Assembly (NCBI GenBank): GCA_021793645.1
Contig: JAJYSJ010000002.1
Coordinates: 208,753 to 262,559, forward strand
Direction: 5' to 3'
Length of the DNA stretch: 53,807 nucleotides
DNA from: Bacillota bacterium
GTDB taxonomy: Bacteria; Bacillota; Sulfobacillia; JAJZYS01; JAJYTV01
The notes under the pieces: generated by a model
Seen by the model: the letters and a program-made list of their open reading frames with translations, nothing else
What the model was told of the DNA's origin: nothing
The model's database searches: none
In this document: positions 19,845 to 32,644 of the stretch, one piece after another
Numbering within the stretch: position 1 is the stretch's first letter
Layout of the letters: each line of letters opens with the position of its first letter
Translations under genes and position numbers: made by a program

Positions 19845-20267
19845 ATGGGAACAATCGCGGCCGTGCTCTCCGGCGCCGCCATGGCGCTGCAAGGAGCGAT
19901 GAATGCGCAGCTCTCGCGTCCGCTCGGGCTCTACTGGATGCTCGTCTCGGTGCAACTCCTGGGCGTCCTGACAGCCCTCGGGCTCGCGTTTTGGCGCACG
20001 CCCGGGCTGCCTTCTCTGATCTCGCCTCCCGTCTACCTCTATCTCGCCGGCCCCCTGGGCGTTGCCATCACGGCGCTCGTCGCGCTCTCCGTACCGCGCC
20101 TCGGCATGGTCCGCACCACGACCTTCATCGTGGTCGCGCAGTTGCTCGCCGCTGTGCTGCTGGACCACCTCGGCATCCTTGGACTCGAGACGCGGCCCTT
20201 CCCCCTCTGGCGTCTAGTGGGCGTAGCCCTACTGGCCGCAGGCGCCCAGATCCTCCTTCACGCCTAG
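19845..20267 (+). CDS. YdcZ-family (DMT superfamily, DUF606) membrane protein
   Basis: 140 residues with five hydrophobic helices, from the ATG at 19845. The frame is open upstream to 19704, and no good SD marks the start, so the N-terminus is uncertain. The opening GTIAAVLSGAAMALQGAMNAQL is characteristic of YdcZ/DUF606 proteins, short DMT members usually acting as dimers; the substrate is unknown. The gene is divergent from argF and shares a CTAG (20264-20267) with the stop of the CAP-domain gene. Confidence 0.75.
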   Translation: MGTIAAVLSGAAMALQGAMNAQLSRPLGLYWMLVSVQLLGVLTALGLAFWRTPGLPSLISPPVYLYLAGPLGVAITALVALSVPRLGMVRTTTFIVVAQLLAAVLLDHLGILGLETRPFPLWRLVGVALLAAGAQILLHA

Positions 20268-21826
20268 GTCGACGCGGCGGGAGAGGTGGTCATCGCCAGA
20301 GGCAAGCGCAGCCCGAGGAGACTCGCGAACTCCTGCGCCGGTACGTAGGGATCCTTCCCTGCGCTTGCAGGAACGTGCCGCAGCGTGATCGGCCGCCCGT
20401 CGAGCGACGCGGCGAAGCTGCGGTATGAAAAGCGCAGCTCATGCCCTCCGGCGAGCGCAGTCGCGAAATCCGGGTTGCTTCTCGACCAGACAAGGGTGCC
20501 GCCGCGCGTGCTGAGCAGGCTGCGCACCGGCACGTAGAGTGTGCCGTCCGTGAGGTAGCCGCGCACGGCGGGGCCCTGTGCGATCTTCAGTGCAACGGCC
20601 TTTTTCAGCGCCGGTGCGGCAGACGTCGAAAAGCTCCAGGCGTAGGAGAAGGAATGCCAGCCCTTCAGGTCACGGTAGCTGCCCTTGAAGGCGGCATGAT
20701 AAACCGTGTTGGCCGCGGTCGGAGACTTCGGGATCAGGGCTGCGCTCATGCCGAGCTCTTCAGGGTTCTGCTCATTCTGCGGCGTCAGAAGGTAGGCCGG
20801 AACCTTTGCGCCGCCTGCCTGCAAAGAGGCGCTCTCGATGCGCAGGCCCGACACCCGCTCGCCGAAGAACGAGATCGTGATTGGGTAGCCGGCAGGGTAG
20901 TGCGCACGCGGGAAGTTCGCCAGAGGATCCGGGATCTCGCCCTCCTCGAACGCGCGCGACACCCCGACGAGCCCTCGCGCGGGCCAGAGCACTGGTACGC
21001 GGTCCGGCACCTCGGCGGAAGCGAGGTAGCCCGCATCGATCGTCGTGACAGGCAGGTCCTGGCTTTCGGAGGACTTGCCGGCGATGCCGTAGCCCATCTC
21101 GACAAGGCCAGGGTCGATCAGGCCGAAGCGGTGGTAGATCGAATCGATCCAGAGCTGGACCGCCTGGCCGATCGGCACACCGAAGGCCATCACCTCGCTG
21201 TCGCCGTCGCCGTTGAAGCCGAATGCGACATCGCGGCTGTACGGGCTGCGCCCGACGTAGCCGGACCACCCAGACTGCTCCTGATGCACGGATATTGTCA
21301 GCGTGCCATAGCGCCCGAGGTTTCGGTAGAAGAAGTCGCTGTGCGCGCGCGAGGCGCCTTCCAGCGGAATGTCCAGAACCATCGGACGCTCGCCCGCGAG
21401 GGCACGGTAGGCGTTCACATCGGCAAGCGCCCCGCGCGAGCTGGCGGCCCAGGTCCGCACCGAGGCCTGGGCACCGCGAACCACAAAGACGTGCCAAGTG
21501 TAGTTCCAGGCGTAGCCACGCCCGAAGACATAAGCCGAAAGCTGGTGGCGCCCCGGCTTCAGCGGCAAGTCCGGCAGGTAGCGCACGACGGGCGCAATTG
21601 CACCCTCTGCCGCGAGCCGGCCGTCCAAAAGCAGTGCATATCGCCCCGGGGGTAGGCGTCCTGAAAGGTGCAAGGAGACCGGCACGCGGGCGAGCATCAA
21701 CTGCGCGTTCGGCTGCGGCGCGACGAACGCGAGGCTCGGTGGTGCAAAGTCCGGTTCGCGCGGCGTCAACGCGAAGGCCGCGGCCACCAAGGCGGCCGCG
21801 GCCAGCGCGAGCGGAATCCGGTTCAA
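20264..21826 (-). CDS. Secreted CAP-domain protein with C-terminal copper-amine-oxidase-N-like domain
   Basis: 520 residues. The order is signal peptide (1-20), a beta-rich domain (about 30-120), a CAP/SCP-like domain (about 130-260, with LADVNAYRALAG and HSDFFYRNLGRYG), a middle beta region, then about 85 C-terminal residues (VRGYLTDGTLYVPVRSLL ... YVPAQEFASLLG) resembling the copper amine oxidase N1 repeat common in secreted Bacillota proteins. The typical CAP signature histidines are partly replaced. The start is TTG overlapping the arginase stop (TTGA at 21823-21826), so translation is coupled. The function is probably in the cell wall but undefined. Confidence 0.7.
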   Translation of the reverse strand: MNRIPLALAAAALVAAAFALTPREPDFAPPSLAFVAPQPNAQLMLARVPVSLHLSGRLPPGRYALLLDGRLAAEGAIAPVVRYLPDLPLKPGRHQLSAYVFGRGYAWNYTWHVFVVRGAQASVRTWAASSRGALADVNAYRALAGERPMVLDIPLEGASRAHSDFFYRNLGRYGTLTISVHQEQSGWSGYVGRSPYSRDVAFGFNGDGDSEVMAFGVPIGQAVQLWIDSIYHRFGLIDPGLVEMGYGIAGKSSESQDLPVTTIDAGYLASAEVPDRVPVLWPARGLVGVSRAFEEGEIPDPLANFPRAHYPAGYPITISFFGERVSGLRIESASLQAGGAKVPAYLLTPQNEQNPEELGMSAALIPKSPTAANTVYHAAFKGSYRDLKGWHSFSYAWSFSTSAAPALKKAVALKIAQGPAVRGYLTDGTLYVPVRSLLSTRGGTLVWSRSNPDFATALAGGHELRFSYRSFAASLDGRPITLRHVPASAGKDPYVPAQEFASLLGLRLPLAMTTSPAAST

Positions 21827-22719
21827 AGAATGCGCTGGCCGAGCGCGGAAAGCACGAGTTCGGCCGCGAGGCGGCCGGTGCGATTCGCAGTGTCCAGGAT
21901 AGGATTCACCTCGACAATCTCCATGGAGGTGAGGACGCCTGCCGCAGAAACCATCTCCATCGCGAGGTGCGCCTCACGATAGGTGATGCCCCCTTGATGC
22001 GGTGTACCGACGCCGGGCGCGTCGTCAGGATCCATGACGTCCATGTCAAAGCTAACGTGCACCGCAGTGGCCCCTTCGATGTGCCCAAGTGCGCGCTTCA
22101 TCACCTCGCGCATGCCCAGCGCGTCAACGTCGGACATCGTGTAGACATGGACCTTGGAGTGACGCAGGGCCTCGCGCTCCAACGGATCAAGCTCACGGAT
22201 CCCGATCATCACGAGTCGCTCCTCACGGATCGGCGGGGCGCCGTTGCGCCCTGCGAGGAGCGCCGGGTTTCCCCGTCCGATCGAGGCGGCGGCGGGCATT
22301 CCGTGAATGTTTCCGGATGGCGACGTTTCGTCCGTGTTGAAGTCTCCGTGGGTATCGAACCAGAGCACGGCAGGGTCTTGGCTGGCGCGAGCCACCCCGG
22401 CAATCGTACCCAGCGCGATGGCGTGGTCCCCGCCCAGCACGAGTGGAAACTTCTGCTGGCGCAGGACGTCCTCTACGGTCCGCCCCAGTTCGCGGCAGAC
22501 GCCCACGATCTCCTCGAGGTACTTCAGCTTCGGATTCCCATGATGGCTCTCTTCCGGGAGCGGGACGCGCAGGTCTCCGAGGTCCTCCACCTCGAGCCCC
22601 AGGCGCTCCAGGCGTTCCTCAAGGGCCGCGTAGCGGATGGCGGACGGTCCCATGTCGACGCCTCGACGTCCGGCGCCAAGGTCCATCGGCACGCCGAGCA
22701 CCGCGATCGGTCGCTGCAA
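21823..22719 (-). CDS. rocF: Arginase
   Basis: 298 residues, the usual bacterial length, from a TTG at 22717-22719 with GGGGAGGA 7 bases upstream; the frame is open to an ATG at 22756-22758 (which has TATACT directly before it) and beyond. The binuclear Mn motifs are complete: GGDHAIALG, FDTHGDFNT, SFDMDVMDPDDAPG and a C-terminal MEIVEVNPILD. It hydrolyses arginine to ornithine and urea. It is about 2.4 kb from argF in the same orientation but separated by a convergent gene. The CAP-domain gene is translationally coupled downstream. Confidence 0.93.
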   Translation of the reverse strand: MQRPIAVLGVPMDLGAGRRGVDMGPSAIRYAALEERLERLGLEVEDLGDLRVPLPEESHHGNPKLKYLEEIVGVCRELGRTVEDVLRQQKFPLVLGGDHAIALGTIAGVARASQDPAVLWFDTHGDFNTDETSPSGNIHGMPAAASIGRGNPALLAGRNGAPPIREERLVMIGIRELDPLEREALRHSKVHVYTMSDVDALGMREVMKRALGHIEGATAVHVSFDMDVMDPDDAPGVGTPHQGGITYREAHLAMEMVSAAGVLTSMEIVEVNPILDTANRTGRLAAELVLSALGQRIL

Positions 22720-22805
22720 AGCTGCTTCCTCCCCGATGGGAAATGCGATTTTATTCATCTCAGTATAGGCCAAACCGCTTCCCAGCCGCCATTCGCCGAA
22801 CAGCC

Positions 22806-23894
22806 CTAAAGCCCGGTGTATGTTCCGATGCGCGCATCCTCCGGATAGCCCCGATCCTCCCAATAGCCGAGGACCACGTGCTCCACCGCTGCGATTCCGG
22901 TGAGCCACTTCACCGATTTGTAGCCGTACATGCCCGGTACGACGAGGCGTACCGGAGCTCCCTGGGACTGGGGCAGCGGCACTCCGTCGATCTCCGACGC
23001 CAGCAGCGGCTTGTATTGCCTGATCTGCGCGGCCGTCAGTCCGTCCGTGTAGACGCCGTCCCCGGAAGAAAAGGCAACCCACGCGTCCCTCTCCGGATCC
23101 CAGCCATACCTGTGCAAGAGCCAGAGAAGATCGACGCCGCGGAAGACAACCCCGGCAACGGACCAGCCGGTGACGCAGGTAAAGTCGATCGATCGCGCGA
23201 TCTGAGGCATCGCGGCGAGTTCGGGCCAGCCAATGTTGGCGGGGGCGTGCGGCAGTCCAGAGAAGTGCAGTCGCCAACTCTCCCGCGGGATCTTGGGATA
23301 GCCCCCGACCACCGTATACGGCACAAAGCCGGGCAGCGCACCAGCCGCTTCGCTGAACGCGCTCTTCGGACCCCCGCGCCAGATGCCGCCGCCCAGCAGG
23401 CGCAGCACACCGGGCAGCGCGTAGAGAGCGGGGAGTGCGAGCAGCGAGCCCGCTCCCCAGCGCAGCACGGCGCGCCGCGTGAGGCCAGGCGCCGAGATCT
23501 CGACGCGCCTAGGACGTTCACGCCACAGATGCACCGCGAGCCAGATGACGAGCCCTGCGGCCGAGGCCGCGTGGACGAGCGTTGCGACGTCGCGGGTCGA
23601 CCCGGTGCCAAACAGCAGCCCAAGGCCACTCAACACCAGCACTGCTGCGAGCGCAAACGCGAAGCGGTGCTGGTTCTTCGCTCCATTGGGCGGCCAGGGG
23701 AAGAGGCGCAGCGAGGCGATCAGGAGGCCTGCGCCGTAGGCAATGCCACCGTAGGTATGGAGGAATTGTGCCACGGGCAGGAGCGGCCCCAATGCCACCC
23801 GCATGCTTGGCAAAAAGAGTCCGAACCCGGTCAGCAGGAGCGCGATCAGTAGCGCAGAGTGGCGCCAGTGCCGCGCGAAGAAAGTCCGCCCCAA
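22806..23894 (-). CDS. Membrane-integrated molybdopterin-dependent oxidoreductase
   Basis: 362 residues. Four hydrophobic helices (about 13-30, 42-62, 78-96, 102-123) carry His46, His108 and His122, possible haem b ligands. A twin-arginine-like TRRAVLRWGAG (139-149) with another hydrophobic stretch follows, then a sulfite-oxidase-type Moco domain (about 185-355) with the Mo-ligand Cys240 in DFTCVTGW. The TTG start has GGGGGAG about 7 bases upstream. Such a chain could pass electrons between an external substrate and the quinone pool. Substrate and haem content are inference. Confidence 0.8.
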   Translation of the reverse strand: MGRTFFARHWRHSALLIALLLTGFGLFLPSMRVALGPLLPVAQFLHTYGGIAYGAGLLIASLRLFPWPPNGAKNQHRFAFALAAVLVLSGLGLLFGTGSTRDVATLVHAASAAGLVIWLAVHLWRERPRRVEISAPGLTRRAVLRWGAGSLLALPALYALPGVLRLLGGGIWRGGPKSAFSEAAGALPGFVPYTVVGGYPKIPRESWRLHFSGLPHAPANIGWPELAAMPQIARSIDFTCVTGWSVAGVVFRGVDLLWLLHRYGWDPERDAWVAFSSGDGVYTDGLTAAQIRQYKPLLASEIDGVPLPQSQGAPVRLVVPGMYGYKSVKWLTGIAAVEHVVLGYWEDRGYPEDARIGTYTGL

Positions 23895-26103: not shown

Positions 26104-26132
26104 TTGACGCGAGGCGTTGCAGGCCTTAGATT
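26104..26132 (+). promoter_or_regulatory. Promoter of the riboswitch-gltB transcript
   Basis: TTGACG (26104-26109) and TAGATT (26127-26132) are 17 bases apart. Transcription would begin near 26139, about 30 bases before the lysine riboswitch, giving a gltB leader of about 340 bases. Confidence 0.6.
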
Positions 26133-26170
26133 TCTTGTTTAAAACCCGCTGGCCGAATCGCTCGGCCCGC

Positions 26171-26365
26171 GGGGAGATAGAGGAGCGAACGCCAACAGTA
26201 GCGGCTCGGAGGATGGCACCGAGGAGGAGCCGCGAAAGGGGCACTCGCCGAAACGCAGGAGATGCCGGATCTCCACGCGTTGGGCTTGCGTCGAACAGGC
26301 GCCGGTCTGTCACTGGATCCTCTCGCCCGGAAGAGAGCGAGGGTACGGTGGAGCGCTATCTCGCG
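26171..26365 (+). promoter_or_regulatory. Lysine riboswitch (L box) upstream of gltB
   Basis: All conserved L-box blocks are present in order. P1 is GAGATAG (26174-26180) pairing with CTATCTC (26356-26362). The core AGGAGCGAAC...CAACAGTA lies at 26181-26200. P2 is CGGCTC/GAGCCG (26202-26207/26227-26232). GAAAGGGG...TCGCCGAA is at 26234-26252. A hairpin GGAGAT/ATCTCC lies at 26258-26274, CTGTCA at 26307-26312 and GGTGGAGCGCTATC at 26348-26361. Block order and spacing closely match the B. subtilis lysC leader as I know it. Known L boxes control lysine synthesis or uptake genes; the only gene downstream here is gltB. Confidence 0.9.
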
Positions 26366-26432
26366 TTGGGTTTGGTTGTGCGGGAAGACGGCCCGGCCGC
26401 CTCCCGCGAGGGTGCGACTAGAAGAAGCGCTC

Positions 26433-26479
26433 GCCACTCCTCCGAGATGCCTCCGTCGACCCGACGAAGGAGGGGTGGC
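26433..26479 (+). promoter_or_regulatory. Hairpin sequestering the gltB Shine-Dalgarno sequence
   Basis: GCCACTCCTCC (26433-26443) pairs with GGAGGGGTGGC (26469-26479) in 11 base pairs with one G-U. An inner CGTCG/CGACG stem (26454-26458/26462-26466) closes the loop. The 3' arm is the gltB SD, and the TTG start follows at 26482. GAGCGCT at the 3' edge of the riboswitch (26351-26357) can also pair with AGCGCTC (26426-26432) next to this hairpin, a possible switching contact. Another hairpin, GCGGGA/TCCCGC (26380-26407), lies between, without a U-tract. Translational control is therefore more likely than termination. Confidence 0.65.
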
Positions 26480-26481
26480 TA

Positions 26482-30969
<4,488 letters not shown>

Positions 30970-30986
30970 TCGGCCCAACATGGAAG

Positions 30987-31022
30987 GCGCCTCCCGGCAC
31001 ACACGGGGCGGGAGGCGTCCTT
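30987..31022 (+). terminator. Probable gltB terminator
   Basis: A 10-bp stem (30987-30996 with 31009-31018, one G-U, 12-base loop) begins 18 bases after the gltB stop and is followed by CCTTCG, a poor U-tract. It separates gltB from the amt leader. Confidence 0.55.
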
Positions 31023-31047
31023 CGCCATATCTCCACGCCACCGAATT

Positions 31048-31074
31048 TGTGAGATCCTGAATCAATATCTGACA
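31048..31074 (+). promoter_or_regulatory. Inverted repeat upstream of the amt promoter (candidate operator)
   Basis: TGTGAGAT (31048-31055) and ATCTGACA (31067-31074) form an inverted repeat with 7 of 8 bases matching and an 11-base AT-rich spacer. It lies just upstream of the likely amt -35 region, where an activator or repressor could act. It resembles half sites of the GlnR/TnrA box (TGTNA...TNACA), but the spacing is too long for that box. Confidence 0.45.
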
Positions 31075-31102
31075 AAAGGATACGGATCTCCAGCGCGCTT
31101 GC

Positions 31103-31108
31103 TAGAAT
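31103..31108 (+). promoter_or_regulatory. Extended -10 element of a likely amt promoter
   Basis: TAGAAT preceded by TGC forms an extended -10 (TGnTAGAAT). No good -35 is present at 16-18 bases, which suits an activator-dependent promoter. The start would be near 31115, giving a leader of about 135 bases before the amt ATG at 31250. Confidence 0.45.
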
Positions 31109-31132
31109 CCCCTGCAAAAGGAGGGGCGCTCG

Positions 31133-31156
31133 ATGTCAGGTTTGATGGCCAGATAG
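31133..31156 (+). CDS. Possible 7-codon leader ORF in the amt leader
   Basis: ATG at 31133 opens MSGLMAR followed by TAG. It has AAAAGGAGGGG about 7 bases upstream, one of the strongest ribosome-binding sequences in the window. The ORF ends 93 bases before the amt start. It may be a translated leader peptide that influences amt, or only a chance ORF behind a purine-rich stretch. Confidence 0.35.
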   Translation: MSGLMAR

Positions 31157-31249
31157 GCGCTGATCCGTTCCCGTAGGAATGCGCAACGCACACACCCCCC
31201 CACGCAGCTCTGCACCCGTGCACCGCGAACCGAGAGGAGGCGGCTATCG

Positions 31250-32644
31250 ATGTTGATCCCGAGCGCAAGTTATCTCAACCCCGGGGATGTCTCCTGGCAG
31301 TTGATCGCCGCCACCCTGGTGGGGCTGATGTCCGTACCCGGCCTCGCAGTCCTGTACGGCGGCCTCGTCAAGCGTCGGTTTGCGGTCAACTCGGCGATGA
31401 TGGTGCTCTACGCGTTCGCCGTCGTCCTGATCGTCTGGGTGCTTTGGGGCTACAACATGAGCTTCGGCGTCCCGTGGAAGCTCGGTCCGGGCATGCTTTC
31501 CGCGATCGTTGGCGTTCCGGGGACGGTTCTGGGCGCGGCGTCTGAGCAGGCCCGCGCGGTTGTGCCGCTCCTCGCCTCCGCCATGCCGGGCCTGCACTTC
31601 CCCGCGTCCGCCATGATCTACTTCCAGTTTGCCTTCGCCGCCATCACGCCAGGGCTTCTGGCCGGTGCTGCACTCGGGCGGATGAACTTCAAGGCCTGGA
31701 TGATCTTCGTACCGCTCTGGACGACGCTCGTCTACTCCGTCGTGGCCTTCTCGATGTGGGGCGGCGGGTGGCTGGCGCAGCTGGGAGCGGTCGACTACAG
31801 CGGCGGCTACGTCATCCACCTCGCTGCCGGCGTCTCCGGCTTCGTGCTCGCGGCCATGCTCGGACCGCGGCTTGCCAAGGACCGTGCAGACTTTAGGCCA
31901 AACAACCTGATGTTCACGCTGGTCGGCGCGGGCATCCTGTGGCTCGGCTGGAACGGTTTCAACGGCGGCGACCCCTACTTCGCGAACGGCGACGCCGCAC
32001 TCGCCGTCCTGAACACGAACATCGCTGCCGCGATGGCGCTCCTCGCTTGGCTCGGCCTGGACGTCTGGGTGCGCGGGCGAGCTACCCTGACGGGTGCGAT
32101 CAACGGCATGATCGCAGGGCTCGTGGCGATCACGCCGGCGGCCGGCTACGTCAACGGCACAGGTGCGCTCCTGATCGGCCTCTGCGCAGGGGTCATCCCC
32201 TGGCTGACGATGAACCTCCTGGGCCAGCGCGGCGTGTTCCGCAAGGTCGACGACACGCTTGGGGTCATCCACACGCATGGCATCGCAGGTGCCATCGGCG
32301 GCCTCATGGCAGGCCTCCTCGCGGACCCGCACGTGCTCGTCTACCTGGGCGTGCACCACGCGGCGCCAGCTGCGGTGACAGGGCTCTTCTACGGCAACCC
32401 GCACCAGTTTCTCGTCCAGCTCGAAGCCCTCGTGGCGATCGTCATCTACGACGCCGCGATGACCTTCCTCGTGCTGAAGCTGGTCGGCCGGCTCGTCCCG
32501 CTGCGTGCTGCCGACCCCGTGATCGAAGGCGGTGACCGCGCGATGCACGGCGAGGAGGCGTACGACTACTCAGATGTGCCGCATGTGCCCCACCGGCCCC
32601 CTGCGGCCGTCCCCTCGTTCAGTGCGGAGGCCAGCGACGCGTAA
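31250..32644 (+). CDS. amt: Ammonium transporter (Amt family)
   Basis: 464 residues with eleven hydrophobic helices. The twin pore histidines are visible as His190 in GGYVIHLAAG and His343 in HTHGIAG. WGYNMSFG and NSAMMVLYAFA are family hallmarks. The cytoplasmic tail from about 425 is His/Pro/Asp-rich and could contact a PII protein, but no glnK lies next to it. ATG 31250 has GAGGAGGCGG upstream. It brings ammonium across the membrane, feeding glutamine synthetase and the upstream-encoded glutamate synthase. Confidence 0.94.
   Translation: MLIPSASYLNPGDVSWQLIAATLVGLMSVPGLAVLYGGLVKRRFAVNSAMMVLYAFAVVLIVWVLWGYNMSFGVPWKLGPGMLSAIVGVPGTVLGAASEQARAVVPLLASAMPGLHFPASAMIYFQFAFAAITPGLLAGAALGRMNFKAWMIFVPLWTTLVYSVVAFSMWGGGWLAQLGAVDYSGGYVIHLAAGVSGFVLAAMLGPRLAKDRADFRPNNLMFTLVGAGILWLGWNGFNGGDPYFANGDAALAVLNTNIAAAMALLAWLGLDVWVRGRATLTGAINGMIAGLVAITPAAGYVNGTGALLIGLCAGVIPWLTMNLLGQRGVFRKVDDTLGVIHTHGIAGAIGGLMAGLLADPHVLVYLGVHHAAPAAVTGLFYGNPHQFLVQLEALVAIVIYDAAMTFLVLKLVGRLVPLRAADPVIEGGDRAMHGEEAYDYSDVPHVPHRPPAAVPSFSAEASDA

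Follow-up and report, generated by a model that had tools for sequence, protein, structure and literature searches.

A lysine riboswitch aptamer in the leader of a glutamate synthase gene, conserved within one family of Sulfobacillia

Lysine riboswitches (L boxes; Rfam RF00168) have been surveyed broadly: for 468 of them in 2785 genomes, the targets were genes of lysine biosynthesis, transport and catabolism (PMC5584792). The lysC riboswitch of Escherichia coli modulates access to the ribosome-binding site (PMC5584792), and highly conserved positions around the bound lysine have been described for this RNA (PMC3764141). RNAs of other kinds have been linked to nitrogen assimilation. Glutamine riboswitches (the glnA and downstream-peptide motifs), which control it, are described as restricted to cyanobacteria (PMC6316151); now and then they accompany a glutamate synthase gene (PMC8632094). 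An orphan candidate upstream of gltD, the gltD motif (SRC-18-1), has glutamine as a suggested possible ligand and a hairpin that apparently masks the ribosome-binding site (PMC8632094). Here we analyze a 53,807-nt stretch of DNA from a bacterium of the class Sulfobacillia (contig JAJYSJ010000002.1, positions 208,753 to 262,559; hereafter the window), in which a lysine riboswitch aptamer directly precedes gltB, the gene for the large subunit of glutamate synthase (GOGAT).

The aptamer belongs to the same class as the E. coli lysC L box and covers the full length of the model, and the gltB leader likewise appears to hide its Shine-Dalgarno (SD) sequence. It differs from known lysine riboswitches in its target: these act on genes for making, transporting or degrading lysine (PMC5584792), whereas the gene here encodes glutamate synthase. 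With the glutamine riboswitches it would share the control of nitrogen assimilation, but neither RNA fold nor ligand, and no glutamine riboswitch family reached threshold in an Rfam search of the window. The gltD motif also lies before a glutamate synthase gene, yet it is a different RNA. The word "glutamate" is absent from the main text of the 468-riboswitch survey (PMC5584792), and among the papers available to a literature search none was found to link a lysine riboswitch with glutamate synthase or gltB. The RNA class is thus known; its wiring to gltB appears to be new.

A full-length lysine aptamer directly upstream of gltB

We searched the window and the whole 3.4-Mb genome with the RF00168 covariance model (gathering score, 30). 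Window positions 26170-26366 on the plus strand—to which all coordinates below refer—matched model positions 1-182 of 182 with 101.4 bits (E 6.8e-26). The original prediction, made from the letters of the sequence, had read all conserved L-box blocks in order together with a 7-bp P1 helix and had named this very search as a check; the full-length match bears it out, with P1 formed by GAGATAG (26174-26180) and CTATCTC (26356-26362). In the genome-wide search, the same element (E 1.0e-27) was the sole RF00168 match.

The model alignment places the blocks of the five-way junction core and the L4 pentaloop in order (AGAGG, AGUA, GAAAGG, GCCGAA, GAAnA, CUGUCA and GGAGnGCUA), and most core blocks are invariant among the five gltB leaders compared below. 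These blocks contain the positions described as highly conserved around the bound lysine (PMC3764141). Read by eye, the loops might also form the L2-L3 kissing interaction, with GGCA in L2 and UGCC in L3 of the window's genome and short complementary runs in the other leaders. As a riboswitch of a known class the aptamer is unremarkable, and the gltB leader would be expected to bind lysine.

The gene directly 3′ of the aptamer, on the same strand, is a full-length gltB: a 1495-codon open reading frame (ORF) at 26482-30969 that scores 1634 bits against the NCBIfam equivalog PRK11750 (glutamate synthase large subunit; cut-off, 1047) and holds all four Pfam domains of GltB (GATase_2, Glu_syn_central, the flavin mononucleotide (FMN) domain Glu_synthase, and GXGXG). 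The ORF opens with TTG at 26482, about 116 nt past the end of the aptamer, or with TTG at 26485; the second is more likely the start codon, aligning with an ATG in a species of the same genus (G003).

Conservation and origin of the arrangement

For comparison we used 154 genomes of the class, among which G000 (the window's genome) to G003 form the window's genus, G004 represents a sister genus, and G000 to G009 make up the family. In G004 and in each of the genus's four species the aptamer stands directly before gltB, so that the presence of the element in relatives, another check named at the outset, extends to five species in two genera. The remaining family members (G005-G009) carry neither an RF00168 aptamer nor this gltB, three of these five genomes being less than 85% complete. 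Of the 114 consensus pairs in the five leaders, 26 have two-sided changes that preserve pairing in one or more sequences, and many of these 26 lie within the aptamer; in an aptamer tree the five gltB-linked sequences formed one clade (support 100/99).

RF00168 matches occur in 36 of the 154 class genomes. Outside the family, most of these aptamers precede lysA, dapB, asd, lysC and LysX-type genes, as judged from translations with examples confirmed by Pfam. Comparing the listed positions of RF00168 matches and gltB gave no further aptamer-gltB pair among the 154 genomes. Nor was a lysine aptamer detected with a riboswitch profile hidden Markov model near 80 GltB loci from an 84,980-species collection, several of these loci having short upstream flanks, and a 398-genome sample of the phylum, compared by eye, held no such adjacency outside the family among the matches listed. 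The nearest gltB leaders beyond the family, those of G086-G088 (GltB identity about 60-63%), G036 and G055, contained no aptamer remnant, even with search filters off. In the simplest history suggested by these sequences, the gltB leader acquired the aptamer once, inside this family; loss of the arrangement in relatives is possible.

Three further placements were noted. In G026, an aptamer at 1501-1687 of locus L030 (84.8 bits) lies about 170 nt before a 262-aa ORF with the uncharacterized domain DUF6754 (PF20539, 281 bits), apparently another unusual lysine riboswitch target. In G039 (L005, 1501-1685), a lysine riboswitch precedes an ORF of the flavoprotein family (PF02441) that by eye looks like dipicolinate synthase subunit B, on a branch of the lysine pathway. 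The longest ORF 3′ of the riboswitch in G027 (L019, 1501-1687) resembles, again by eye, a membrane protein of the site-2-protease family and not a lysine gene.

The expression platform and its predicted direction

Between aptamer and start codon, each of the five leaders is predicted to form an 11-bp hairpin, pairing an anti-SD strand, GCCACUCCUCC (26433-26443), with GGAGGGGUGGC (26469-26479), the strand that carries the SD region of gltB (AAGGAGG, 26467-26473). The hairpin of G004 differs in sequence (UGCCUCUCCUC with GAGGAGGGGCA) and keeps the same architecture. When the leader tails were folded, the probability of the SD being unpaired was near zero in every species; forcing P1 led to aptamer-like helices, with the SD likewise closed in 5/5.

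At the end of the anti-SD strand stands the pentamer CGAGA, which is invariant in the alignment of the five leaders and whose GAGA is unpaired in the predicted hairpin. Part of CGAGAUG (26443-26449), this pentamer duplicates sequence of the P1 5′ strand and is complementary to AUCUCG of the 3′ strand. The leader sequences, forced-helix folding and a duplex test point to a putative switching strand, CUAUCUCG (26356-26363; the P1 3′ strand plus one base), with two possible partners: the P1 5′ strand and CGAGA(UG), the latter pairing having moderate support from the duplex test. When forced, the alternative helix extends into the anti-SD strand through bases that vary by species, and the SD partly opens in 5/5 leaders. 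As nested structures, the P1 state and the alternative-helix state are mutually exclusive. Palindromes of the type AGCGCU:AGCGCU were also considered as a general anti-P1 helix and dropped, as G004 lacks them.

An SD hidden in an 11-bp hairpin, together with a P1 3′ strand that has two potential partners, points to a translational OFF switch. We consider it probable that the element is a genuine lysine riboswitch serving as the 5′ leader of gltB, most likely one through which lysine lowers GOGAT synthesis at the level of translation. Without lysine, the P1 3′ strand and the bases following it would pair with CGAGA and the adjoining anti-SD strand, freeing the ribosome-binding site so that GltB is made. 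With lysine, the aptamer would close P1 and leave the anti-SD strand to pair with its SD partner; translation of glutamate synthase would fall, and little GltB would be produced. The aptamer and its link to gltB are established by computation, and lysine binding, the OFF direction and the physiological reason are inferred. What appears to be new here is the target gene, in an arrangement that is conserved and that, read from predicted structure, would make a mechanistically coherent switch.

Several observations weigh against this proposal. Relative to shuffled sequences, the alternative helix reaches p values of 0.015-0.15 per genome, a moderate support from sequences that are themselves related; it is 4.8-10 kcal/mol less favorable than the fold of the tail without constraints, and the SD opens in part only (mean unpaired probability, 0.29-0.47). 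Given this cost and the partial opening, the alternative helix would need co-transcriptional folding. The sequestering hairpin, too, is not exceptionally stable against shuffles (whole-tail z, -0.3 to -2.4), and the arrangement as a whole is confined to one family.

Could the pre-start hairpin instead act mainly by premature termination of transcription, or by a mixture of termination and translational control? The stability and GC-richness of this hairpin, its end close to the start codon and the U-rich stretch that comes next in some species (in G001, CUUUUGUUGU) would suit such a mechanism. The terminator scan called no site there, however, which favors control of translation, and the U run is poor in G000 and G004 while the hairpin itself buries the SD in each of the five leaders; we therefore regard termination as unlikely. 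Somewhat less likely still is an ON switch in which lysine raises GltB. The class can work in both directions, activation having been described where the target is a lysine catabolism gene (PMC5584792), but here the SD is predicted to be closed in 5/5 leaders when P1 is formed, the very state that lysine stabilizes.

The identity of the target raises the question of the ligand. With a gene of the glutamate pathway downstream, and with glutamine riboswitches found occasionally on glutamate synthase (PMC8632094), the fold might have been kept while its specificity shifted to another metabolite, for instance glutamine, which is closer to the GOGAT reaction. Against this, the conserved RF00168 core blocks are matched, including the positions around the bound lysine (PMC3764141), and a shift of ligand seems improbable. 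We give the least credence to a chance neighborhood, a relic or an assembly artefact, that is, a lysine leader left over before gltB. The assemblies are drafts and the arrangement occurs in this family only; yet it recurs in five independent assemblies that span two genera, the aptamer stems are maintained by two-sided changes, and the expression platform overlaps the gltB SD with no other conserved gene between aptamer and gltB. Translational repression by lysine thus remains our preferred account of the leader.

The transcription unit and its metabolic setting

Upstream of the aptamer, a consensus scan detected a promoter-like site at 26104-26132 (TTGACG, 17-nt spacer, TAGATT) with 9/12 consensus matches, for which 0.1 sites are expected in shuffles of the region. 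TTGAC is common to all five leaders, and the -10 region is variable. A further hairpin (26145-26173) is predicted ahead of the aptamer, after the presumed start of transcription, and some two-sided changes are found among its consensus pairs in the five leaders (columns 41-75). All five leaders share one order: promoter-like site, extra hairpin, aptamer, a variable stretch and the 11-bp hairpin.

Downstream, the original prediction had taken gltB to be the only gene. It is indeed the next gene on the same strand, about 116 nt off, but an ammonium transporter gene, amt (31250-32644; TIGR00836, 362.6 bits versus a cut-off of 343.3; PF00909), follows on the same strand 280 nt past gltB, an order also seen in G003 and G004. 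No promoter-like or terminator-like site was called in the gap between the two genes (30970-31249), and it is therefore possible that amt belongs to one transcription unit with gltB. The gap also contains an inverted repeat that is rich in GC and lacks a T run. On the other side, genes of the arginase family and with a CAP domain lie upstream of gltB both in the window (20267-23277) and in G001 (L031, 1244-3696), indicating that the neighborhood is partly syntenic. With gltB and then amt downstream, the leader falls outside the lysine regulon as described, in which targets serve lysine biosynthesis, transport or catabolism; that restriction characterizes the regulon as known so far and does not define the aptamer class.

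Lysine genes themselves are present in the family, lysA scoring above cut-off in 10/10 genomes and dapA in 8/10. With these genes present and the one aptamer of the window's genome placed at gltB, the lysine pathway of this organism is not under this riboswitch class. For the small GOGAT subunit gltD (TIGR01317), no gene reaches the curated cut-off in the 10 family genomes, five of which carry full-length gltB; GltB may work with a different partner or draw electrons from another donor. Genes with a glutamate-dehydrogenase-type domain are present, so that GOGAT may not be the sole route to glutamate.

Two reasons for the proposed wiring are possible. Lysine may serve as a read-out of amino-acid or nitrogen sufficiency that slows glutamate production by glutamine synthetase and GOGAT; or, as originally suggested, the link may reflect the consumption of glutamate amino groups by lysine synthesis. 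We see about an even chance that in this lineage the riboswitch has moved off lysine metabolism altogether, acting as a sensor of nitrogen sufficiency on GOGAT and possibly amt while the lysine genes remain free of the aptamer. The wiring to gltB is directly testable by standard RNA probing and reporter assays. If it holds, a lysine riboswitch would act on central nitrogen assimilation and not on lysine itself: the end product of one amino-acid pathway would be coupled to the enzyme that supplies the general amino donor, and the family would exemplify how a riboswitch gains a new target with no change in its conserved core.
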